Part shown: piece after piece, positions 13,807-42,738 of the stretch
Numbering within the stretch: the first letter of the stretch is position 1
Layout: each line of letters opens with the position of its first letter
From: Caldilineaceae bacterium
GTDB lineage: Bacteria > Chloroflexota > Anaerolineae > Caldilineales > Caldilineaceae
DNA: 64,000 nt
NCBI GenBank assembly: GCA_026708085.1
Contig: JAPOVP010000043.1
Location: 1 to 64,000 of the forward strand
Reading direction: 5' to 3'
Made by a program: the position numbers and the translations under genes
The notes under the pieces: model-generated
The model's database searches: none
Seen by the model: the letters and a program-made list of their open reading frames with translations, nothing else
Told to the model about the DNA's origin: nothing

Positions 13807-16121
13807 CGCGGGAACGGGATGCCAACGATCCGGTCGAGGCGCGTGGCGGTTCGACCGATGGAGAGAGCGGAGACGGTGGAGCGGAGCGGGCTGAGCCCGT
13901 TCGGTCACGAAAACGGGGCTGGCGGCTTACACGGCGCGGTTTTCTGATCGGGCTGGGGGCGGCGGGGGCCGGGCTGGCCGTGGGCGCGTATTTCGGCAGG
14001 CCGGTCCTCCACGGAATCATGGCGGAGAGTATGGCAGAGGCTGAACACGCCGGGAGCAGTTTTATGCAGTTGCCTGACGATCCGCCGCTTTGGCTGGAGG
14101 TATTGGAGGACAGCCGCATACGTCTGTCTCTGACCAAGGTGGAGATGGGGCAGGGGGTCCATACATCGATCGCGCAGATCGCGGTGGAGGAGCTGGGCAT
14201 CAGTTGGGATGACCTGGTGGTGGAGCAGGCGGATACGTCTTCAAAGCTGGTGGACGGCATGGGCACCGGCGGCAGTTTTTCGGTTTCAACCAGTTACGGG
14301 CCGCTGCGCCGTGCGGCCGCGGGCATGCGTAGCTTGCTGCAGCGGGAGGCGGCGGAGGTGTTAGAGCAGCCGGAGGCAACTTTGCAAGTTGTCGGGCGGG
14401 GGTTTGCGGTCACGGACAGCCCTGAGAATAAGGTTGACTTCTACAGTCTGGCTGAAGCGGTTACGAGCTGGGACCTTCCCGAGGAGGAGGCGCTGCAGCT
14501 GAAGGCGGCGGATGAATTTACCGTGGTCGGACAGCCGGTGGCGCGCATTGACATTCCCGACAAGGTAACGGGGCAGGCAGTCTACGGCTATGACATGCGC
14601 GTGCCCAATATGCTATATGGCGCCGTGCCGCGGCCGCCAACACTGGAGGCAAAGCTGGTCGGCGCGTCAGCAGGCGAGGCGGCAGCGATGGATGGCGTCG
14701 AAGAGATCGTGGTCGACGTTGAAAACGGCTTTGCCGGTGTGGCGGCGAGCTCTCGCAGCGCGGCCTGGTCGGCGGTGAAGGCGATGGAGACGGAGTGGGA
14801 TGAAGGGTATCTGTGGCAGCAGGAGGAGATCGAGGCGCTGATCGAACCGGCAGGGGAGGGCGGAATCACGATCCAGCGCGAGGGCAACGCCGCCGGTGTT
14901 CTGAAAAGAGAAAGGGCGATCACGGCCACCTACCGTTCGCCGTTTGCGGTGCAGGCCCCGCTCGAGGCACCAGCAGCGCTTGCGGATGTACAGGACGGCC
15001 AGGTGACGGTGTGGGTGTCGACCCAGTCCCACGAAAGAGCGAAGGGGTTGATCGCCGAGGCCCTCGGTGTGGAGACCGACACGGTCCGGGTTGTCCCGAC
15101 CTATCTGGGGGGCGGCTTTGGCGCCAAGCTCGATACCGGGGTGGCAGTTGAAGCGGCACGCCTGTCGAGGGCAGCCGGCGCACCTGTGCACGTGGGATGG
15201 GACCGAACGGAGGCGATGCTTCACGGCTACCTGCGGCCGCCGACGAAAAGCGTTCTCTCCGGTGCGCTGGACGGGAACGGACGGATCGTCGCCATGGAGC
15301 ACCGGCAAGGCAGCAGCGACGTGGCCTTCAGTTTCATGCCCGCGTTCATGGAAATCGTATTGGGAGCGGACTTCGGCGCAACAGTCGGGGCGCGAATCGA
15401 CTATGACGTGCCCAACCGCACGGTGACGGCCTGGCGAAAGAAACTGCCGGTGTGGACGGGCTGGTGGCGGGGGCTGGGACTTTTCGCGAATACGTTTGCG
15501 GTGGAGAGTTTCGTCGACGAGCTGGCAGCGGCGGCGGGCGCGGACCCGCTGAAGTTCCGCCTCGATCATCTGCCGGACAGTCCTGCGGGTGAGCGTATGG
15601 GGGCGGTGCTGGAAGCGGTCGCGGAACAAAGCGGCTGGGGGACAGTGCCGCCCGAAGGCCGGGCAAGGGGCGCCGCCTGTTTTGGATCGAATACAGTGGT
15701 GGCACAGGTGGCGGAGGTGTCGGTGGATGAAGGGTCAGGGGAGATCACCGTTCACAGGGTGGACTGTGCGGTGGACTGCGGGCTGGTGGTGAACCCCGAT
15801 GGGGCGAAGACCCAGATAGAGGGGAACGTAATGTGGGGCGTGGGGTCGACGCTGATCGAGCAGGCGTATGTGAAAGACGGGCGACTGGAATTGAACAATT
15901 TCGAGAGCTACCCGTTGTTGACGATGCGCGGGGCGCCGGATGTCCGGTCGGTACTTGTGGACACCGGTATTGACACGCCTTACGGAATGGGGGAGCCGCC
16001 GATCGGGCCGGTGGGCGCGGCGATCGGCAACGCGTTTACGGCGGCGACGGGCAGGCGCATCCGCACACTGCCGATGACGCCGGCGCGCGTTGTGGATACG
16101 CTGGCTGGGGGCGGATCCTGA
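13803..16121 (+). CDS. Molybdopterin subunit of an IorB-like aldehyde/N-heterocycle dehydrogenase, Tat-exported
   Basis: Large catalytic subunit (772 residues) that hydroxylates an aldehyde or N-heterocyclic substrate with water as the oxygen source; the true substrate cannot be read from sequence. After a charged 40-residue leader there is a twin-arginine motif (LTRRGFLIG, Arg44-Arg45) and a hydrophobic segment, so the complex is probably exported folded. Family landmarks include VEMGQGVHT near residue 115, GGGFGAK near 435 and a C-terminal GMGEPPIGP segment carrying the presumed catalytic Glu. The small subunit has no Tat signal and probably hitchhikes. The gene overlaps the small-subunit gene by ATGA. 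Confidence 0.9.
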   Translation: MTRERDANDPVEARGGSTDGESGDGGAERAEPVRSRKRGWRLTRRGFLIGLGAAGAGLAVGAYFGRPVLHGIMAESMAEAEHAGSSFMQLPDDPPLWLEVLEDSRIRLSLTKVEMGQGVHTSIAQIAVEELGISWDDLVVEQADTSSKLVDGMGTGGSFSVSTSYGPLRRAAAGMRSLLQREAAEVLEQPEATLQVVGRGFAVTDSPENKVDFYSLAEAVTSWDLPEEEALQLKAADEFTVVGQPVARIDIPDKVTGQAVYGYDMRVPNMLYGAVPRPPTLEAKLVGASAGEAAAMDGVEEIVVDVENGFAGVAASSRSAAWSAVKAMETEWDEGYLWQQEEIEALIEPAGEGGITIQREGNAAGVLKRERAITATYRSPFAVQAPLEAPAALADVQDGQVTVWVSTQSHERAKGLIAEALGVETDTVRVVPTYLGGGFGAKLDTGVAVEAARLSRAAGAPVHVGWDRTEAMLHGYLRPPTKSVLSGALDGNGRIVAMEHRQGSSDVAFSFMPAFMEIVLGADFGATVGARIDYDVPNRTVTAWRKKLPVWTGWWRGLGLFANTFAVESFVDELAAAAGADPLKFRLDHLPDSPAGERMGAVLEAVAEQSGWGTVPPEGRARGAACFGSNTVVAQVAEVSVDEGSGEITVHRVDCAVDCGLVVNPDGAKTQIEGNVMWGVGSTLIEQAYVKDGRLELNNFESYPLLTMRGAPDVRSVLVDTGIDTPYGMGEPPIGPVGAAIGNAFTAATGRRIRTLPMTPARVVDTLAGGGS

Positions 16122-29436: not shown

Positions 29437-30328
29437 GTGGGCATTTGAAAATTCCTGCCTGGCAGAATAGGGAGCAGGAACTAACCCATTCAGGCCAAGC
29501 AGAAGAGTACATCGTCACACGGAATTCGTGGGTACGAACAATGTTCTGACTCAACAGGAATTGGAAGTCATCAAGCCGTTTCTGTGATGTGAACGGAAAG
29601 GGGCGGGACGGCAGACGGCATTGGAAATGCGGCAAGTAATGAATGCGATATTCTATGGGCTGCGCACTGGCTGTCCTCGGAGATACTTGCCGCATCATTT
29701 CCCCAATTTCAACAGTGTTTACTATCATTTTCGCAAGATGTGGCGCAATCGACTTTGGCAGCGGATGGACAGTGCCTTGTGCCGACTAAGCCGGCAGCTA
29801 CAGGGGAGGCAACCTGAGCCGAGTGCCGCAATCATCGACGGCCAGAGTGTGAAGAAAACCGAAGCGGGTGGTGTACGCGGCTACGATACAGGCAAAAAGA
29901 TCAACGGACGCAAACGTCATATCGCAACCGACACCTTGGGGAAAGTGGTGGCCGTCGTTGTCCATGCAGCCAACATTCAGGACTATTATGGCGCCAGGCA
30001 ACTCCAGCGTTTGCTACATCAATTCACGCATTTTTCACAACGTATCTGGGCGAACAGCGTCTGTGGAAGGGCTGGCTTGGGAGAATGGTTGCTGGGTTCC
30101 TTTCAAATCGTGCTCGAAACCGTCAAACGCAACCCAGGGCAAGAGGGCTTCGCTGTCCTCTGGCGTCGTTGGGTTGTCGAGCGTACTTTCGCCCGGCCAG
30201 GTCGCCATCGCCGCCTGAGCAAAGACTACGAACACTGCAGCCTGAGTAGCGAAGGCTTTATCGACCTCGCTTCCATCTGCCCTATGGTTCGTCGTGTTGC
30301 CGCCGCTACTTAATTTTCAAACAGGCTC
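29437..30328 (+). mobile_element. IS5-family insertion sequence remnant
   Basis: An 892-bp element bounded by imperfect inverted repeats. The right end, read inward on the minus strand, is GAGCCTGTTTGAAAATT (30312-30328); the left end at 29437-29453 shares TTTGAAAATT but differs in the outer seven bases. The transposase inside is broken. No convincing target-site duplication is seen. The element fills the space between the stop codon of the XRE regulator (29435) and the stop codon of the YfhO gene (30329-30331). Confidence 0.8.
29501..30313 (+). pseudogene. Degenerate IS5-family DDE transposase
   Basis: The frame encodes the N-terminal piece LTQQELEVIKPFL, is stopped by an in-frame TGA at 29585-29587, and then continues in the same frame with MNAIFYGLRTGCPRRYLPHHFPN, IIDGQSVKKTE (first catalytic Asp), RGYDTGKKINGRKRHI and VVHAANIQD. 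The region that should read WADGGYRG reads IWANSVCGRAG, so the second catalytic Asp is replaced by Asn. The third residue, Glu in RWVVERTFA, and RRLSKDYE are kept. No proper start codon precedes the TGA. The transposase is almost certainly inactive. Confidence 0.88.
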
Positions 30329-35834: not shown

Positions 35835-36301
35835 AGGTTAGTGGTTGGTCGTCAGGAGTCATTGATTTCCGTCTGAATCAGGAATGCCGGATTATCAGGA
35901 TTTCTGTAGCAGGCTCTCGACAGTACTGGCGTTACCGGCAGGGTCTTTGTGGGACTTGCCTCTTCTGACTTGCCCAGCTTATGACTGCATTGGCTCATGC
36001 TCGGAACCAGCCAAGTCTGGGAACGCGGCCGTAGGCATTCGGTCGCAAGCATCCCCGCTACATTGAAGGCACAAACTCGGCGAGGCATGTTGTAAGAGGG
36101 GGGGCGTTGCGGGGGGGAACCCCCCGCACAAGGGAGGCCGCTTGCGACCGACCGCCCAGAAGAGCGAGGAGAGAGTAAAGAGGAGTGAGAGACAGCCAAG
36201 TGCGGCTGTTCTGCTTGGGCAAGGTTGGATTGAAGCCAAATAGGTAGAGAGTCACTTAGAAACATTCGATGGAGCAACCAGACACTTTTGGAGACGGATT
36301 G
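35835..36301. other. Intergenic region with dispersed repeats
   Basis: No gene. The stretch 35870-35915 contains a degenerate tandem-like sequence (CTGAATCAGGAATGCCGG then ATTATCAGGATTTCTG) of the kind seen as scattered low-complexity repeats in some GC-rich genomes. Copy B of the double-hairpin repeat is at 36078-36158. The long minus-strand open frame that spans this region and the next gene is a shadow. Confidence 0.5.
36078..36158. repeat. Double-hairpin intergenic repeat, copy B
   Basis: This copy shares with copy C the left arm GGCGAGGCATGTTGTA and with copies A and C the segment GCGTTGCGGGGG, the G/C hairpin, CACAAGGGAGG and the end GACCGC. The first hairpin has G7/C6 arms with a slightly changed loop (GGAAC), and the second is broken by one change (CTTGCGACC for CTTGCGGCC), so this copy is the most diverged. 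Confidence 0.75.
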
Positions 36302-37213
36302 ATGCACTCGACACTCAAGACCGAGCGGCTGATTTTGCGACCTCTTGCGGCGGACGATGCGGAGGACCTTTTTGACGCGTACCGGCGGCCGGAAGCGATG
36401 CAGTTTATGGACGATCCGGCGCACTCTTCGGCGGCTGAGACAAAAGAGATGGTCGATGGAATGCTGGACGGGCCCGGGACGGTCTGGACGGTGCGCACGG
36501 CGGAGGACGGTCCGGCGCTGGGATATGTGGATTATATCGGCAATGCGGGCGTGCCGGGGATGGGCTATTTTCTGCACCCTGACCATTGGGGAAACGGCTA
36601 TACGAGCGAGGCTGTGCGGGCGGTGCTGGACTACGGTTTTGACGAGATGGGGCTGGACCGGGTGGAGCTGTGGATCAGTGAAGAGAACAGGGCATCTGTG
36701 CGTGTGGCTGAGAAGGTGGGATTCAGACGCCGGGGCAGGATGCGGCAGAAGTATCATCAGGACGAGACGGGCCATGATAAGCTCACCTACGGCATCACGG
36801 CGGAGCAGTGGCGCACGGGGCAACTGGCGGGCAACGCGCAGGCTGCATACCTGCTGGCGCCGATTCTGGCGGTGCCGGATGTTCAGGCTGCGGCGGAGTA
36901 TTATTGCGATAAGCTGGGATTCACGGTCGGCTTCCTGTACGGGGACCCGCCAACGCACGGCGGCATCCACCTGGGCGAATGGACGTCGGAGGGCGCGCAT
37001 ATTCAACTTTCTCTGACGGATCAACCGTTGCCGGAGAAACCGCCGGTGGGGTTTTATGTGTTTATGGGGGAGGACGTTGACGGCCTCTTTGGGAAATACC
37101 GAGCGGCGGGCGTTCGTATTGAACGGGAGCCGACGGACGAGCCGTGGGGGATGAGGGAGTTCGCGATTCGGGATTGCAATGGGTACCTGCTGCGCTTTGG
37201 CAGGCCGAGTTGA
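36302..37213 (+). CDS. GNAT acetyltransferase fused to a VOC (glyoxalase-like) domain
   Basis: A two-domain cytosolic protein of 303 residues. Residues 1-175 are a RimJ/RimL-type GNAT N-acetyltransferase: TERLILRPLAADDAEDLF at the start, GYFLHPDHWGNGYTSEA with the acetyl-CoA pyrophosphate loop, and ENRASVRVAEKVGFRRRG. Residues about 180-303 are a vicinal-oxygen-chelate domain: LAVPDVQAAAEYYCDKLGFTV, GGIHLGEW and DCNGYLLRFGRPS. Such VOC domains often bind or modify antibiotics or small metabolites. ATG 36302 has GGAG eight bases upstream; ATG 36269 has none. Confidence 0.87.
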   Translation: MHSTLKTERLILRPLAADDAEDLFDAYRRPEAMQFMDDPAHSSAAETKEMVDGMLDGPGTVWTVRTAEDGPALGYVDYIGNAGVPGMGYFLHPDHWGNGYTSEAVRAVLDYGFDEMGLDRVELWISEENRASVRVAEKVGFRRRGRMRQKYHQDETGHDKLTYGITAEQWRTGQLAGNAQAAYLLAPILAVPDVQAAAEYYCDKLGFTVGFLYGDPPTHGGIHLGEWTSEGAHIQLSLTDQPLPEKPPVGFYVFMGEDVDGLFGKYRAAGVRIEREPTDEPWGMREFAIRDCNGYLLRFGRPS

Positions 37214-37414
37214 TGGGAGGACTGTACAGATTGTGACCTTTCGGCTAGGACGAAGGTAAGAAACAATCTTTCAGGTCTTGGGGCTCTCGAACTGGACACA
37301 CAACAAATTGGGAAGTAACATTTAGCTCGTTGGCATAGACCTTTCTTCACCACTATATCGCCTTCACCCTTCGTACGACAAACTGTACGTTCAGACAGGC
37401 TTAAGAGAGATCCC
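37214..37414. other. Left border of AT-richer island
   Basis: About 200 bp without a gene. Base composition falls here from the GC-rich background, and stays low until about 41450. No att-like direct repeat, tRNA or integrase was seen at this border. The final AAGAGAGA before 37415 may serve as ribosome binding site for the GHKL gene. Confidence 0.35.
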
Positions 37415-39973
37415 ATGGCCAGTGATCCTTTGTTCGCTACTATTGGCACGATGGCTGACAGCATTGACGTGCGTCTCAGCTACAAGATCGTGGAATTGTT
37501 CTCGGAAGGTCTTTACTCAAGCCCAAACAAGGCCGTTGAGGAACTCGTCGCCAATTCCTTTGATGCTGGAGCAGAGCAGGTCCATGTGCTGCTTTCGCCA
37601 AACCTCCACGACCAAAATGCTACAATCGTCGTGATTGACGACGGCGAAGGGATGGACCAAGATGGACTGAAGCAGCACTGGCTCATTGGAATTAGCAACA
37701 AACGCCGCCTTTCCGAACCTCCACGGGATCGCAAGCAGATAGGAAAGTTTGGGATTGGAAAGCTAGCAACCTACGTGCTAGCTGACAGACTGACTCACAT
37801 TACTAAGCGCGGGGAGAAGTACTATTCTACTTCAATGGACTATAACAAGATTGATAGACGAGTAGACGGTGAAGTAGAGCCAAGAACACCGCTTAAGATT
37901 GACTTGAATGAACTTTCATTCGCGGAAGCACAACAGGCAGTCAAACAGTGGACGGAGACAACTGCCTTCAAATCAGCAGGCTTGACACTTTTCGGGAGGG
38001 ACAGCCCAGAATCGTGGACAGTAAGCATCATGTCTTCGCTTAAGGGAAAAGTGCATGAAATTCGGCTGGGTGTCCTGGAATGGGTGTTACGCACTGCATT
38101 GCCCTTACGTCCTGATTTTGGTATCTGGCTAAATGGCAGAAAACTCGCGCCGAGCAAAGAAGAAAAAGGGTTGATCAGACGCTGGGTCCTTGGAAGGGAT
38201 TTGGCCGAACTTCCTCGACCAGGTCCCAAAGAAATAACGACGCAAGAAGACGAGGACGTTGAAGCAACCAGCGAACACCGTTTCGGACTTGATGTCCCTG
38301 ACTTGGGACGCGTCACTGGTTATGCAGAAGTGTATGAAGACCTGCTAACCGGTAAGTCCGATAGGCTAGGAAGAAGCTATGGATTCTTTGTCTACGTATA
38401 CGGACGGCTCCTCAATGTGGTTGATGGGCACTTTGGAATCTCCCCAAATGAACTCAGGCATGGGACATTCGGGCGCTTCCGCCTTGTAGTCCACATTGAC
38501 GGGCTGGACCGCGGGCTTCGCTCGAATAGGGAGACAATCGGCGAAGGCCCTATGCTTGATACAGCACAAAACCTCTTGAGAGCAATATTCAACGCTGTCC
38601 GCCCTACATTGGAGAGGCATGACAAAGACGAAGAGCCAGGGGCCAAATTGTCTCGAAAGTTGGCCGATAGTCCAGCGAGTCTGTCACGCAGACCCATTGT
38701 AGGTCTCGCAAAAGCAGTTGCTGAGGGCAGACTGAAATCTCGTTACCTGATAGTCCCTCAGTTCACGTCGCAAGAGGAGCGCGAGGCGTTCCTTGACTTA
38801 CTCGATAACCGAGCCAACAATCCCGGAAAGTTTGTTACAACTGTAACCGACGATTTTGAGGGCTCGGGACGAGACGGCCTCGTGAGGTTCGACCCGCAGT
38901 CAGGCACATTACTTCTCAACAGGTGGCATGATTTTGTCTCCACTTTTCATGACGCTTTCACACATCGAAGGTTCGGACAGCCTCTTGAACTATTCGCCAT
39001 GGCCGAAGTTCTGACCGAAGCCCATTTGTACGCAGTTGGTGTAAAACCACAGGACATTGAAGAATTCCTATCAGAACGAAACCAACTCTTACGATACCTC
39101 GCAAACGAATCGGGACAGCAGAGCGCTTTATCCATCGCAAATGCGCTTTCCGACGCTAGAAACAACCCAGATCGTTTGGAGGAATGTGTTTGTATTGCCT
39201 TCCGCTGCCTCGGCTTCGATGTCACTCAATTTGGCAAGCGAGGGCAACCAGACGGCGTGGCCACAGCTAATCTCTTCCCAGATAAGAGAGGGAACCCACA
39301 ACATTACAGGGTGAGCCTAGAAGCGAAGAGTAAAGAGCATCATGGAGCGAGGGTGTCGGAGCAAGACGTAAACCCCGCTGCTGTAGTTCGGCATCGCGAC
39401 GAGTTCAAATGCGAACACGCTGTGGTAATTGGCCCGGACTTTCAGACTTCACAAGGGGAGGAATCGGCGCTCGGGAAGTCCATCAAAGAATATCGCGACA
39501 AATCGAAGCAATCAGGAGAGCACAGAACAGTTTCCCTAATGACAATAGACGACCTTGCCCGGCTCGTAAGGCTTCGTCCCATAAAGCAGATTGGATTGAG
39601 GAAAATCCGCGAACTTTTCCAAGAATGTAGTCTTCCCCAGGAAAGTTACCGATGGATTGATTCAATACACAGGTTACCAGTTGAGAATCCGCCATACGGC
39701 AGAATTGTGGAAACAATACACGAATTACAAAAGGAGTTTCCTCTTGAGCCGGTACGATATTCAGGGCTTCGCGTCGCGCTGAGGAATTTGACTCCTCCCA
39801 TTACTTTTGGGAAAGACAGCGAACTTTACGACCTATGCTTTGCCATGGCCCAGATGGCGCCCGGTGCCATTTACGCTACGTCAGAAAAAGTTGATCTGGA
39901 CCAGAGCGTTGAAAATGTGATTGCCGCAATTGAGACAGCTTTGCATGACTATCCCCCTGACAAGAGCTTGTGA
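37415..39973 (+). CDS. GHKL (MORC/MutL-like) ATPase fused to a PD-(D/E)XK nuclease domain
   Basis: An 852-residue protein with all N-terminal GHKL ATPase motifs: Glu43 and Asn47 in EELVANSFDAGA, DDGEGMD at 75-81 and GKFGIGK at 110-116. A transducer-like region follows (NGRKLAPS, YGFFVYVYGRLLNVVDGHFG to about 400). The C-terminal part holds a restriction-endonuclease-like core: helix LEECVCIAFRCLGFDV, GQPDGV with Asp613, and, after a 22-residue insert, LEAKSK with Glu636 and Lys638. ATP-gated DNA cleavage is inferred. A DNA methyltransferase starts 10 bp downstream. Base composition is clearly more AT-rich than the surroundings (24 G+C in the 60 bases at 37801), a sign of transfer. Confidence 0.82.
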   Translation: MASDPLFATIGTMADSIDVRLSYKIVELFSEGLYSSPNKAVEELVANSFDAGAEQVHVLLSPNLHDQNATIVVIDDGEGMDQDGLKQHWLIGISNKRRLSEPPRDRKQIGKFGIGKLATYVLADRLTHITKRGEKYYSTSMDYNKIDRRVDGEVEPRTPLKIDLNELSFAEAQQAVKQWTETTAFKSAGLTLFGRDSPESWTVSIMSSLKGKVHEIRLGVLEWVLRTALPLRPDFGIWLNGRKLAPSKEEKGLIRRWVLGRDLAELPRPGPKEITTQEDEDVEATSEHRFGLDVPDLGRVTGYAEVYEDLLTGKSDRLGRSYGFFVYVYGRLLNVVDGHFGISPNELRHGTFGRFRLVVHIDGLDRGLRSNRETIGEGPMLDTAQNLLRAIFNAVRPTLERHDKDEEPGAKLSRKLADSPASLSRRPIVGLAKAVAEGRLKSRYLIVPQFTSQEEREAFLDLLDNRANNPGKFVTTVTDDFEGSGRDGLVRFDPQSGTLLLNRWHDFVSTFHDAFTHRRFGQPLELFAMAEVLTEAHLYAVGVKPQDIEEFLSERNQLLRYLANESGQQSALSIANALSDARNNPDRLEECVCIAFRCLGFDVTQFGKRGQPDGVATANLFPDKRGNPQHYRVSLEAKSKEHHGARVSEQDVNPAAVVRHRDEFKCEHAVVIGPDFQTSQGEESALGKSIKEYRDKSKQSGEHRTVSLMTIDDLARLVRLRPIKQIGLRKIRELFQECSLPQESYRWIDSIHRLPVENPPYGRIVETIHELQKEFPLEPVRYSGLRVALRNLTPPITFGKDSELYDLCFAMAQMAPGAIYATSEKVDLDQSVENVIAAIETALHDYPPDKSL

Positions 39974-39983
39974 GAGGCCAGAT

Positions 39984-41222
39984 ATGTCGGACATCTTAAA
40001 TGGAAGAACCGTCATCGAAATCCTAGGACGAAACCCGGTCCATCCATTCCCTGCTCGGATGGCTCCAGGCCTTGCTCTTGACGCAATTGCAGAAACCAAC
40101 CAACCCTTACGCATACTCGATCCCATGTCTGGCTCTGGAACAGTACTTGCTGTCGCTCAGTCTAGGGGACACCATGCCATCGGTCTAGATATCGACCCAC
40201 TTTCTGTTCTCATTTCAAGGGTTTGGACGACACCAGTTGATGCAGAATCCTTGCTAGAGCAGGGAACGCAAGTTCTGGAACGGGCTCAATGCGGGTTCAC
40301 ATCGCTCGAAGAAGGTGACGCATACCCCTTAGGCTCGGACGATGAAACCAAAGGCTTCCTAAGTTTCTGGTTCGATGGCAACGCGCGTCGGCAACTAACT
40401 TTGCTAGCCTCTGCCATCAAAGAAATTAAGTGCAGAAGAATTCGCAGTGCGCTTTGGTGTGCCTTTTCTCGCCTAATTATTGCCAAGAAGTCGGGGGCAT
40501 CGTTAGCGATGGACTTGTCTCACAGCCGGCCGCATCGCGTCTTCAAACGTGCACCATCAGAACCATTTGGAAATTTCTTGTCTGCTGTGAATCGCGTTGC
40601 CAAGAACTGTTTAGACAATAGAACTCGAGCCCCTGGGCCTTCGACTACAGTACATGAAGGGGATGCCCGTAGTCTGCCTCTTGATGACGGCTCAATTGAC
40701 CTAGTACTTACGTCCCCTCCGTACTTAAACGCGATCGACTACTTTCGATGCAGCAAATTCTCCTTAGTCTGGATGGGATATTCCATTGAGGAACTACGCA
40801 GCCGTAGGTCGGTTTCGGTTGGAACTGAGGTCGGGAAAGAAGCGGACAATGACCATGAGATTCAAGACGTCTTCTCCGCGTTGGACTTAAACCCGGTATT
40901 GGAAACGAGGCAGAGAAAGATTCTTGCGCGGTACATTGACGACATGAGGCGCGTCGTTAGAGAAACTGCCAGAGTCCTCGTTCATGAAGGACAGGCAGTA
41001 TATGTGATTGGTGAGAACACAGTACGGGGCACGTATATCCCCAATGCCATCATTGTGGAGGCGGTTGCGAATTCTGCGGGTCTCCGTTGCAAAGCGAAGC
41101 GTTCCAGGGAACTGCCGGCGAACCGTCGATACTTGCCTCCACCGGCTACACAGTCGGCAAAAGCCTCGCTTGGTGGACGATTGCGCCGAGAGATAATTCT
41201 CACATTTGAGAAAACGAACTGA
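39984..41222 (+). CDS. DNA methyltransferase (N4-cytosine/N6-adenine type)
   Basis: A 412-residue amino-methyltransferase. SAM-binding motif I is LDPMSGSGTV at 45-54 with the acidic LDIDP following; catalytic motif IV is TSPPY at 243-247, a form common in N4-cytosine enzymes but also seen in N6-adenine ones. The order motif I, about 180 residues that could include target recognition, then motif IV, resembles alpha-type arrangement. A C-terminal part has VYVIGENTVRGTYIPN. ATG 39984 is preferred (GAGAGG upstream); the frame from 39921 overlaps the upstream gene. Tight 10-bp coupling to the GHKL-nuclease suggests it protects self DNA from it. Confidence 0.88.
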   Translation: MSDILNGRTVIEILGRNPVHPFPARMAPGLALDAIAETNQPLRILDPMSGSGTVLAVAQSRGHHAIGLDIDPLSVLISRVWTTPVDAESLLEQGTQVLERAQCGFTSLEEGDAYPLGSDDETKGFLSFWFDGNARRQLTLLASAIKEIKCRRIRSALWCAFSRLIIAKKSGASLAMDLSHSRPHRVFKRAPSEPFGNFLSAVNRVAKNCLDNRTRAPGPSTTVHEGDARSLPLDDGSIDLVLTSPPYLNAIDYFRCSKFSLVWMGYSIEELRSRRSVSVGTEVGKEADNDHEIQDVFSALDLNPVLETRQRKILARYIDDMRRVVRETARVLVHEGQAVYVIGENTVRGTYIPNAIIVEAVANSAGLRCKAKRSRELPANRRYLPPPATQSAKASLGGRLRREIILTFEKTN

Positions 41223-41454
41223 ACTTAGAGAAGATTCTTCATACTCACTAGGGTTTTGCATTAGCTACAAGCGAAAGTTATCGAAGGGACCCTCGTTGCT
41301 ACTTGCTTCAAAATCTCTCTTTTGTTTGGCTGGCAATGAGGCAAAACCATTTTAGGGTAGGCACGTCTCCTCCAAGACGAACAGTTCTCATCTTGCTAGC
41401 CTTTCATCCTTTACAGCAAGAGAATATCCTCTCATTGCAGCGAAAGACATCTCA
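41223..41454. other. Right border of AT-richer island
   Basis: About 230 bp without a gene. The sequence is still AT-rich (for example AAGTTATCGAAGGGACC and long A/T runs), and background composition returns inside the next gene. No direct repeat matching the left border, integrase or tRNA was seen. Confidence 0.35.
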
Positions 41455-42738
41455 ATGATGAGCACATATAAAGGTCGGAAGCTCTGGAACTTCGCGCTTG
41501 AACGAGGCATGAGCCGGCGTCGTTTTTTGCAGATGCTATCGGCTGGCGGGACTGCGGCTGTGCTGGCGTCCTGTGCTGGATTGCCACTGCCCACGGCGAC
41601 GGCGCCGACCGCTGACGATAGCACGGAAGAAGTTCCTCAATTCAGCAAGGACCCGGCACCATTCATCGATCTCGACGGCGGGAATCTGGAAGCCCGACTG
41701 GAAAACATGCAGGGACTGATCACTCCCAGCCGGTTCTTTTTTGTACGCAACAACTCGGTCAGCCTGGAAGTCGACGCGGCTGACTGGCGGCTCTCCGTCG
41801 AGGGCGACGCGGTTTCCAATCGATTGGAACTTTCCTACGATGACATTTTGAATCTGCCCAGCAGGACGTTAATTTCCTACCTGGAATGCGCGGGCAACCA
41901 ACGGGCCATGTTCGACTTGGTGAAAGGGCGGGCGGCAAAAGGGACGCAGTGGAAAACGGGGGCGGTGGGCAACGGCGTATGGACAGGCGCGGCGATGCGG
42001 GACGTGCTCGAGCGGGCGGGCATCACCGAAGAGGCGGTCAGCGTGCTTTTGGTTGGGCTGGACACGGGTTCGCCGGAAGAGGGATTCCGACGCGTCATGC
42101 CGGTCGAAAAGGCGATGGATCCAGATACGATGCTGGCCTATGCGCTGAATGGTGAGGCGCTGCCGAGGGATCATGGCTTCCCATTGCGGGCGCTGGCGCC
42201 CGGGTGGGTCGGGGCTGCCAATGTAAAGTGGCTAGGGCGAATCGTGGTCTCGTCGAAACAGCTTTGGACCCGAAACAACACGACCTCATACACGTTGATC
42301 GGCGATGCCTATCCACCGGAAGGTGAAGCGCTGGGCAAGCCGTTGACAGTGCAGACGGTCAAGAGCGCGCTGGCGCTGCCGTGGCCGGCAGAGTTGGGGG
42401 CGGGGGAGCACCGCATATATGGCTTTGCGCACTCGCCGAACGGGCCGATTGCGGAAGTGGAGTGGAGCAGCAGTTCCGGGGAGACATGGAACGTCTCTAC
42501 GCTGGAAGAGCCGCAGATTCAAGCGGAATTCGGGCATCTAGCGGAAGATTTCAGCGACAGCGCATTCAGATATTCCTGGACGCGTTTCGGCTTTACTTGG
42601 GATGCGGGACGGGGCGAGCACACGATTATGACGCGGGCGACGGACGCCGCGGGCAATACGCAACCAGACGAAATTCCTTTCAATGAGAAGGGTTATCTAT
42701 TCAACCAGCCGTTACCCCATCCGATACGGGTAACGTAG
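41455..42738 (+). CDS. Sulfite oxidase-family molybdopterin oxidoreductase, Tat-exported
   Basis: Mononuclear Mo enzyme of 427 residues. The N-terminus has a twin-arginine motif (MSRRRFLQM, residues 19-27) and a lipobox-like LASC ending at Cys40, so it is probably exported and possibly lipid-anchored. The oxidoreductase Moco domain has the Mo-ligand Cys145 in LECAGN, and later RVMPVEKAMDPDTMLAYALNGE, LPRDHGFPLRALAPGW and NVKWLGRI. The C-terminal Mo-co dimerisation domain ends with TWDAGRGEHTIMTRATDAAGN. This is the SorA/SoxC layout without a heme domain. The electron acceptor is unknown. Start ATG 41455 or 41458. Confidence 0.9.
   Translation: MMSTYKGRKLWNFALERGMSRRRFLQMLSAGGTAAVLASCAGLPLPTATAPTADDSTEEVPQFSKDPAPFIDLDGGNLEARLENMQGLITPSRFFFVRNNSVSLEVDAADWRLSVEGDAVSNRLELSYDDILNLPSRTLISYLECAGNQRAMFDLVKGRAAKGTQWKTGAVGNGVWTGAAMRDVLERAGITEEAVSVLLVGLDTGSPEEGFRRVMPVEKAMDPDTMLAYALNGEALPRDHGFPLRALAPGWVGAANVKWLGRIVVSSKQLWTRNNTTSYTLIGDAYPPEGEALGKPLTVQTVKSALALPWPAELGAGEHRIYGFAHSPNGPIAEVEWSSSSGETWNVSTLEEPQIQAEFGHLAEDFSDSAFRYSWTRFGFTWDAGRGEHTIMTRATDAAGNTQPDEIPFNEKGYLFNQPLPHPIRVT

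Follow-up and report, generated by a model that had tools for sequence, protein, structure and literature searches.

An ATPase–nuclease gene paired with a DNA methyltransferase gene in a Caldilineaceae genome: a probable restriction–modification cassette

The window analysed here is a stretch of 64,000 nucleotides from a Caldilineaceae bacterium (assembly GCA_026708085.1, contig JAPOVP010000043.1, positions 1 to 64,000, forward strand), and it contains a cassette of two adjacent genes. The first gene encodes a GHKL ATPase joined to a nuclease, and the second encodes a DNA methyltransferase (MTase). Judging by sequence, the two genes are probably a real and functional restriction–modification (R-M) cassette. 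We estimate a probability of about 75% that the cassette is type II-like and ATP-gated, so that the MTase would mark self DNA, a dimer of GHKL and S5 domains would close with ATP, and the nuclease would cut unmarked DNA. This reading is carried by recognisable domains with intact catalytic sites, by the conserved pairing and co-descent of the genes, and by a recent transfer of the two genes alone. The features are as follows (positions in the window).

37415..39973, + strand: gene for a protein of 852 residues, consisting of a GHKL ATPase, an S5/transducer, a linker, and a PD-(D/E)XK nuclease
37448..38149, + strand: GHKL (Bergerat) ATP-binding domain, residues ~12–245 (HATPase_c_3, Hsp90/MORC structural matches, invariant residues)
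38150..38629, + strand: S5-fold transducer, residues ~246–405, with K314 and GFFVYVYGRLL (323–333)
38630..39094, + strand: variable linker or middle region, residues ~406–560 (poorly conserved in the family alignment)
39116..39682, + strand: PD-(D/E)XK nuclease domain, residues ~568–756, with E589, P612-D613-G614, and E636-A-K638
39984..41222, + strand: gene for a predicted DNA N4/N6 MTase with the alpha motif order, 412 amino acids (aa)
40119..40142, + strand: MTase motif I, DPMSGSGT (S-adenosylmethionine (SAM) binding), residues 46–53 (DPM-x-GSG in 11/11 aligned sequences)
40236..40613, + strand: mostly helical insertion between MTase motifs II and IV, residues ~85–210 (AlphaFold2 (AF2) secondary structure, motif order)
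40710..40724, + strand: MTase motif IV, TSPPY, residues 243–247, catalytic (11/11 sequences)
37214..41480, no strand: entire acquired insert, comprising both cassette genes and the flanking parts, 4.27 kb (empty site in relatives, low guanine–cytosine (GC) content)

Both open reading frames (ORFs) lie on the + strand, are uninterrupted, and are separated by 10 bp. The original prediction had described an 852-residue protein with GHKL motifs and the residues D613, E636, and K638, followed 10 bp on by a 412-residue MTase with DPMSGSGTV and TSPPY. The ORF coordinates, the motif positions, and the matches to HATPase_c_3 (Pfam, E 2.1e-24) for the first protein and to N6_N4_Mtase and PADLOC models for the second confirm this description. 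The GHKL motifs are E43/N47, D75-D-G-E-G79, and G110-K-F-G-I-G-K116. In the nuclease pattern, D613-(22)-E636-A-K638, the residues had been named correctly, but the upstream acid E589 had been overlooked.

Residue conservation was checked at 22 positions of 16 full-length family proteins. E43, N47, D75, G77, G110, G113, G115, and K116 never vary, and neither do K314, E589, G614, A637, and K638 beyond the GHKL motifs. Residue 613 is D in 15 of the 16 proteins and E in one, position 636 is occupied by E or D, and G79 and T127 are variable. Apart from this single replacement of D613, the catalytic residues of both parts (GHKL and E-D-(E/D)xK) are kept in 16/16 proteins. The intact GHKL ATPase site in all of them argues against a classical ATP-independent type II system.

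According to the predicted structure and the sequence profiles, the ATPase half is of the MORC/Hsp90 type and the C-terminal domain is a PD-(D/E)XK nuclease, which agrees with the folds proposed from the motifs. The protein has the N-terminal GHKL motifs and S5 domain of MORC/paraMORC ATPases, and the structural match spans residues 19–405. K314, judged by its position, is presumed to be the S5 lysine. The S5 motif of MORC proper is given as GhXhhpXXRhl (PMC2292703), and the stretch G323-FFVYVYGRLL agrees with it by eye at 10 of 11 positions, with V328 at the polar position. In VIA-align, Hsp90 N domains equal MORC3/MORC4 on Z, but only ~165–172 residues are aligned versus ~280–290, while Foldseek alone placed TRAP1/Hsp90 chains higher than MORC2; absence of a family from these match lists does not rule it out. 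In PADLOC, generic Type II restriction endonuclease (REase) models are matched by the GHKL part of eight of nine family members, and TmtA and MzaB are weakly matched by two of nine each. In NCBIfam, no family was over its cut-off for either protein.

When the family nuclease profile was compared with PDB sequences, HindIII was at the top with an E of 7e-5, the second row having an E of 0.045. The Pfam matches of the family nuclease domains belong to the Mrr, HindIII, and FokI families, and N.BspD6I is a structural match of the nuclease part. The helix/strand order of the PD-(D/E)XK core can be seen in the predicted structure of the window protein. SduA_C was not matched by nine whole family proteins (the window protein at E ≤ 1) or by 13 nuclease domains at E ≤ 0.05.

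In the second protein, motif I precedes motif IV and (D/S)PPY is present; this alpha-class order was found in 11/11 aligned MTases. The N6_N4_Mtase match scores 33.7 bits against a cut-off of 26.7 (Pfam), the PADLOC match is to a Type II MTase (E 1.8e-32), and the top PHROG match is a Type II DNA MTase (2e-30). The level of identity with an MTase of Deinococcus radiodurans pCP1, which may be M.DraR1, is 22% (E 7e-11). The enzyme probably forms N4-methylcytosine (m4C), as is suggested by its SPPY (PMC10855626). The helical insertion, in which residues 169–187 have a predicted local distance difference test (pLDDT) score below 50 in the AF2 model, is a candidate target-recognition region. The fold matches of the MTase are headed by tRNA methyltransferases, with archaeal Trm11/TrmN as the best structural neighbours, and on this ground the enzyme might act on RNA (tRNA) and the pair might be an RNA-directed system. 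We consider this most improbable: TSPPY and the motif order are typical of m4C DNA enzymes, the DNA methylase TTHA0409 is among the structural matches, the top family matches are the Type II DNA MTases mentioned above, MTase relatives stand beside NgoMIV REases, and the nuclease encoded beside it has the fold of restriction enzymes.

The GHKL-nuclease family was found at 19 loci in all (designated by L numbers), 17 of which are assessable; L069 and L130, both ending at a contig edge, were left out of the partner count. The window-type MTase gene is located directly downstream, in the same order, at 11 of the 17 loci (the window, L002, L003, L037, L038, L039, L043, L077, L127, L128, and L129), with a 4-bp overlap of the two genes at L002, L037, and L077. 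A different MTase is found nearby at five loci. In L036, L035 (15220–17721), and L066 the adjoining MTase is a 24–25% relative of the window type (at 13850–15229 in L035), in L067 a linear N6_N4 MTase adjoins the GHKL-nuclease gene, and in L068 a C5 MTase gene of convergent orientation is separated from it by a Vsr gene. A DNA MTase thus stands beside the GHKL-nuclease gene (in L068, one Vsr gene away) at 16 of the 17 loci; without L077, which was found through the MTase query, ten plus five of sixteen loci have an MTase. The pair is kept together in distant bacteria, a point on which the original prediction could have failed. At L043 (948–3396), the GHKL-nuclease frame is interrupted in its nuclease part and the MTase frame runs on unbroken to the edge of the contig (L043/L048), which fits the R-M reading; in this draft genome the break may reflect decay or a sequencing error.

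The distribution figures rest on genome samples rather than on a full protein-database search. Of 301 genomes sampled from the window's phylum, six have the GHKL-nuclease family (seven loci) and 41 have the MTase family. Given the latter frequency, adjacency by chance appears very unlikely. In the window's genus the family was detected in one of 17 genomes, the other 16 lacking it. In the class of the L002 genome, a whole family protein was found in 2/369 genomes, that of L002 and G330 (L043/L048), and four more genomes have the GHKL part only. In the phylum of the Phycisphaerae record the family is present in 4/246 genomes, and in that of the Clostridiales record in 0/249, an empty answer that carries little weight. 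A search of contigs gave 21 loci, of which L002 and L003 are full-length and 19, with the GHKL part only, were excluded from the pair counts. Predicted viral contigs with the family are L066–L069, in addition to L077, brought in by the MTase query.

At seven of eight predicted viral loci the MTase family occurs without the nuclease within the sequence examined, as would be expected if phages protect their own DNA with the MTase. In named phage records the MTase gave three matches and the GHKL protein one weak match. Among named plasmids, 26 of 48 records cover 80% of the MTase (best identity 40.8%), and none of 30 covers 80% of the GHKL protein.

The cleavage domains of FokI and N.BspD6I require a separate recognition domain. 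The matches to these two enzymes are compatible with one ATP-dependent complex resembling types I and III, in which the MTase would recognise the target, the GHKL part would be a motor or a clamp, and a largely non-specific FokI-like domain would cut. The use of one nuclease scaffold with at least four kinds of MTase (window-type, L036/L035/L066, L067, and L068) also favours this arrangement, because swaps would be easier if the MTase brings the specificity. Such a complex is the main rival of the type II-like reading but nevertheless seems unlikely, as the related BbrUII/HgiDII proteins, which are named restriction enzymes, pair a GHKL REase with a separate 5-methylcytosine (m5C) MTase (NCBIfam; PMC5867850), and the uncharacterised residues 406–560 and 757–852 leave the nuclease protein room for recognition of its own. 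The former region is a candidate DNA-contact region.

The distances between GHKL proteins and those between MTases are tightly correlated over ten intact pairs (Mantel r 0.95, 0/20,000 permutations as high). These are ten of the 11 same-order pairs, L043 being omitted for its broken frame. On the GHKL tree, the window protein groups with two proteins from gammaproteobacterial metagenome-assembled genomes at 100/100, and L127, from the phylum of the Phycisphaerae record, joins this group next, again at 100/100. The MTase tree recovers the group of the window and gammaproteobacterial sequences; its grouping with L127 is weakly supported. Since the distances correlate and the trees are similar, the two genes have most likely passed together from one phylum to another.

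A recent insertion can be seen in the window's own genome. In seven of seven same-genus relatives examined, the site is empty and the flanking genes are adjacent; 129–146 bp separate the end and the resumption of homology to the window, which has 4.27 kb there. These relatives were taken from the search with the downstream oxidoreductase, which matched 16 of 31 genomes, the window's own included, seven of the fifteen others being examined. The GC content is 0.50 in the insert versus 0.62/0.61 in the flanks, and third-position GC is 0.51 and 0.50 in the cassette genes versus 0.70–0.78 in five flanking genes. The immediate neighbours are a GNAT-glyoxalase gene and a molybdopterin oxidoreductase gene. 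The latter had its first ~9 codons replaced by the insert (41455–41480) and keeps an in-frame start, supplied by inserted sequence. The ends of the insert share no direct word of 8 bp or longer and have one 9-bp inverted match, so that this transposon hallmark is lacking. In the draft assembly (97% complete, 7.5% contamination), both insert flanks are syntenic with the genus. The empty site in relatives, the GC contrast, and the presence in one of 17 genus genomes indicate that the two genes alone were transferred together, recently.

This pattern also bears on a non-defence explanation. Similarity to MORC, Hsp90, and MutL would fit a DNA-repair or chromosome-structure module that uses methylation marks. 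The occurrence in 6/301 phylum genomes and 1/17 genus genomes, the recent insert, and the viral contigs point instead to mobile, dispensable genes, which makes a repair module very unlikely.

Two side observations concern the surroundings of the insert. The GNAT acetyltransferase–glyoxalase fusion (36269–37213, 314 aa) is present in the seven same-genus relatives read, and an ORF resembling by eye an IS5-type transposase is located at 29621–30313, ~7 kb upstream of the insert.

The closest characterised kinds are BbrUII/HgiDII and GHKL-Shedu (VcSduA). The BbrUII/HgiDII family (NF050001) shares the N-terminal GHKL and S5 domains with the window protein (hhalign probability 99.5%, E 2e-22, residues 17–395), and two of its members over the family cut-off carry HATPase_c_3. 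Like the window pair, its members have a C-terminal D...ExK stretch (by eye) and an adjacent DNA MTase. However, the window protein scores 74.6 bits against NF050001, with a cut-off of 550, over residues 26–155 only, and the nuclease parts do not align; membership of this family was therefore rejected. The nuclease parts of BbrUII/HgiDII show weak, below-cut-off matches to Shedu, HsdR_N, or NucS models. Its proteins comprise ~660 residues versus ~850 in the window family, and its partner MTase is of the C5 type by eye, whereas the window partner is of the N6_N4_Mtase type; M.HgiDII is listed as an m5C MTase for GTCGAC (PMC5867850). In the window's phylum, this family was found in 10/151 genomes at E ≤ 1e-40, four of them over the family cut-off.

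GHKL-Shedu (type I-D, VcSduA; paraMORC3) shares the combination of a GHKL ATPase and a C-terminal PD-(D/E)XK nuclease in one protein. Unlike Shedu, the window family has no SduA_C/DUF4263 match in the proteins and domains scanned; its nuclease family differs, and Shedu membership was rejected. VcSduA is a single-gene system, while the window cassette has a co-descending MTase. As reported for VcSduA, E27A and K557A abolish phage defence, both active sites are needed, and cultures are protected at all multiplicities of infection tested, which makes it an experimentally proven phage-defence nuclease (PMC12137116). It is a precedent for the cassette in having the same GHKL-to-nuclease layout, though with another nuclease family and no MTase. 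The association of GHKL/MORC ATPases with R-M systems, mentioned in the original prediction, was indeed proposed in 2008 by Iyer, Abhiman, and Aravind (PMC2292703). The MORC/paraMORC R-M systems described there have, like the window, GHKL and S5 ATPases beside methylases and restriction endonuclease-fold nucleases. A superfamily II helicase is part of ~70% of those MORC neighbourhoods and missing from a minority (PMC2292703); the window pair has none. The nuclease fusion paraMORC3 is described as RecB-like (PMC2292703) and was later assigned to Shedu (PMC12137116).

Mrr-type nucleases are often active on modified DNA. This behaviour, the activity of VcSduA as a single gene (PMC12137116), and locus L035 7947–10451 without an adjacent MTase would suit a nuclease of the Shedu or type IV kind, responding to the ends of phage DNA or to modified DNA, with a loosely linked MTase as a passenger or orphan regulator. 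An MTase is nearby at 16 of 17 loci, the ten pairs co-diverge tightly, and SduA_C is absent from the nine whole proteins and 13 nuclease domains searched; we therefore regard this explanation as rather improbable.

NgoMIV-type R-M systems have an REase directly beside a distant relative of the MTase (31–39% identity to the nearest query). In the window's phylum, MTase relatives adjoin an NgoMIV gene in L112 and L115–L119 (Pfam matches in L112, L115, and L119; the others look alike), and these neighbours support a role of the MTase as a DNA enzyme of an R-M system. The NgoMIV-type REases are ~280–300 aa in length and are unrelated to the GHKL protein. They act independently of ATP. The DraI m4C R-M system of Deinococcus radiodurans shares an alpha-class MTase, an N-terminal SAM motif, and a C-terminal SPPY; its REase is of the GIY-YIG type and is located ten ORFs away from the MTase (PMC10855626). 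As for type I systems, the cassette overlaps hsdS by 4 bp in L002 (73–8655), follows hsdS in L003 (73–6513), and is near hsdM/hsdS in L038 (8437–17735); only these three adjoin hsd genes among the loci read. An obligatory link to type I R-M was rejected, since inspection by eye, with part of the neighbours scanned, showed no hsd gene around the pair in the window, L037, L039, L043, or L127–L129.

No description of a GHKL-nuclease combined with an N4/N6 MTase came up among the papers listed in the literature search, REBASE and most subscription papers being outside its scope. It appears to be an undescribed variant of a general design already known: GHKL-nuclease restriction enzymes with an MTase (BbrUII/HgiDII) and GHKL-Shedu. 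The interpretation as a restriction-like module is thus supported, while its kind is less new than the original prediction implied.

Linked genes for a DNA methyltransferase and an endonuclease, which define type II R-M systems, are present by sequence and fold. In the ATP-gated type II-like reading, the MTase would methylate a short target sequence of the host genome, the MORC-like GHKL and S5 module would form a dimer with ATP and clamp around DNA, and the HindIII/Mrr/FokI-type nuclease would cut DNA carrying unmethylated targets. We infer the DNA clamping, the gating by ATP, the cutting of unmodified DNA, the methylated base, its target, and a defence phenotype.

Besides the tRNA methyltransferases among the fold matches, several points weigh against this reading. 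The AlphaFold model of the 852-aa protein is moderate (pLDDT 72, predicted template modelling score 0.48, 7 sequences). Mrr_cat is below its 21-bit cut-off in the window protein (15.2 bits for the whole protein, 20.1 bits for the domain alone) and slightly over it in the relative L003 (21.3 bits). The window-type MTase is not an obligatory partner, since at least three further kinds of MTase accompany the family and one of the 17 assessable loci (L035 7947–10451) has no MTase adjacent; the MTase family itself occurs mostly without the GHKL-nuclease in the window's phylum (41 vs. 6 of 301). Finally, the cassette stands alone between housekeeping genes, and a defence-island context is absent in the window, the type I hsd genes beside L002, L003, and L038 being found in relatives.

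The association of one GHKL-nuclease scaffold with at least four kinds of MTase (window-type, its distant relative, linear N6_N4, and C5 with Vsr) allows a broader and tentative idea, which we hold to be doubtful. The GHKL-nuclease might be a general ATP-gated restriction engine to which an exchangeable MTase tells where or whether to cut. Such an engine would be neither classical type II nor type I or III, and a MORC-like clamp would be used in place of a translocating helicase. MORC ATPases are clamps whose role in eukaryotic silencing is debated; in prokaryotes, fusions of GHKL and nuclease domains are common but poorly understood. A minimal two-gene unit makes it possible to test the role of ATP in GHKL restriction enzymes and the way in which a MORC-type clamp reads DNA methylation, and the cassette could be the source of a restriction enzyme that ATP controls in an unusual way.

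Several further observations concern relatives of the two proteins. Two divergent GHKL-nuclease genes are present in the L035 genome; they lie on opposite strands with 4.8 kb between them, and only one adjoins an MTase. Vsr genes are found at two GHKL-nuclease loci of viral contigs, L066 8850–11933 (by look) and L068 3944–5488 (scanned, with the C5 MTase). A haloarchaeal plasmid protein of 881 aa (L033, 5905–8550) matches both the GHKL and nuclease parts at 23–25% identity, and an annotated DNA methyltransferase gene ends ~3 kb upstream of it. A lone window-type MTase is located back to back with a different GHKL gene that has its own MTase in L031 (3037–9176), a rhizobial plasmid whose GHKL gene has two HATPase domains, and in the viral contig L073 (339–6535). 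Apparently orphan MTase copies (L102, L103, and L106, among others) have in their vicinity a small gene that matches sigma-70 region 2 below threshold (L103 scanned) and an IrrE-like gene (L106 scanned); by eye, genes of similar appearance were noted at further host loci and at the viral loci L071 and L076.

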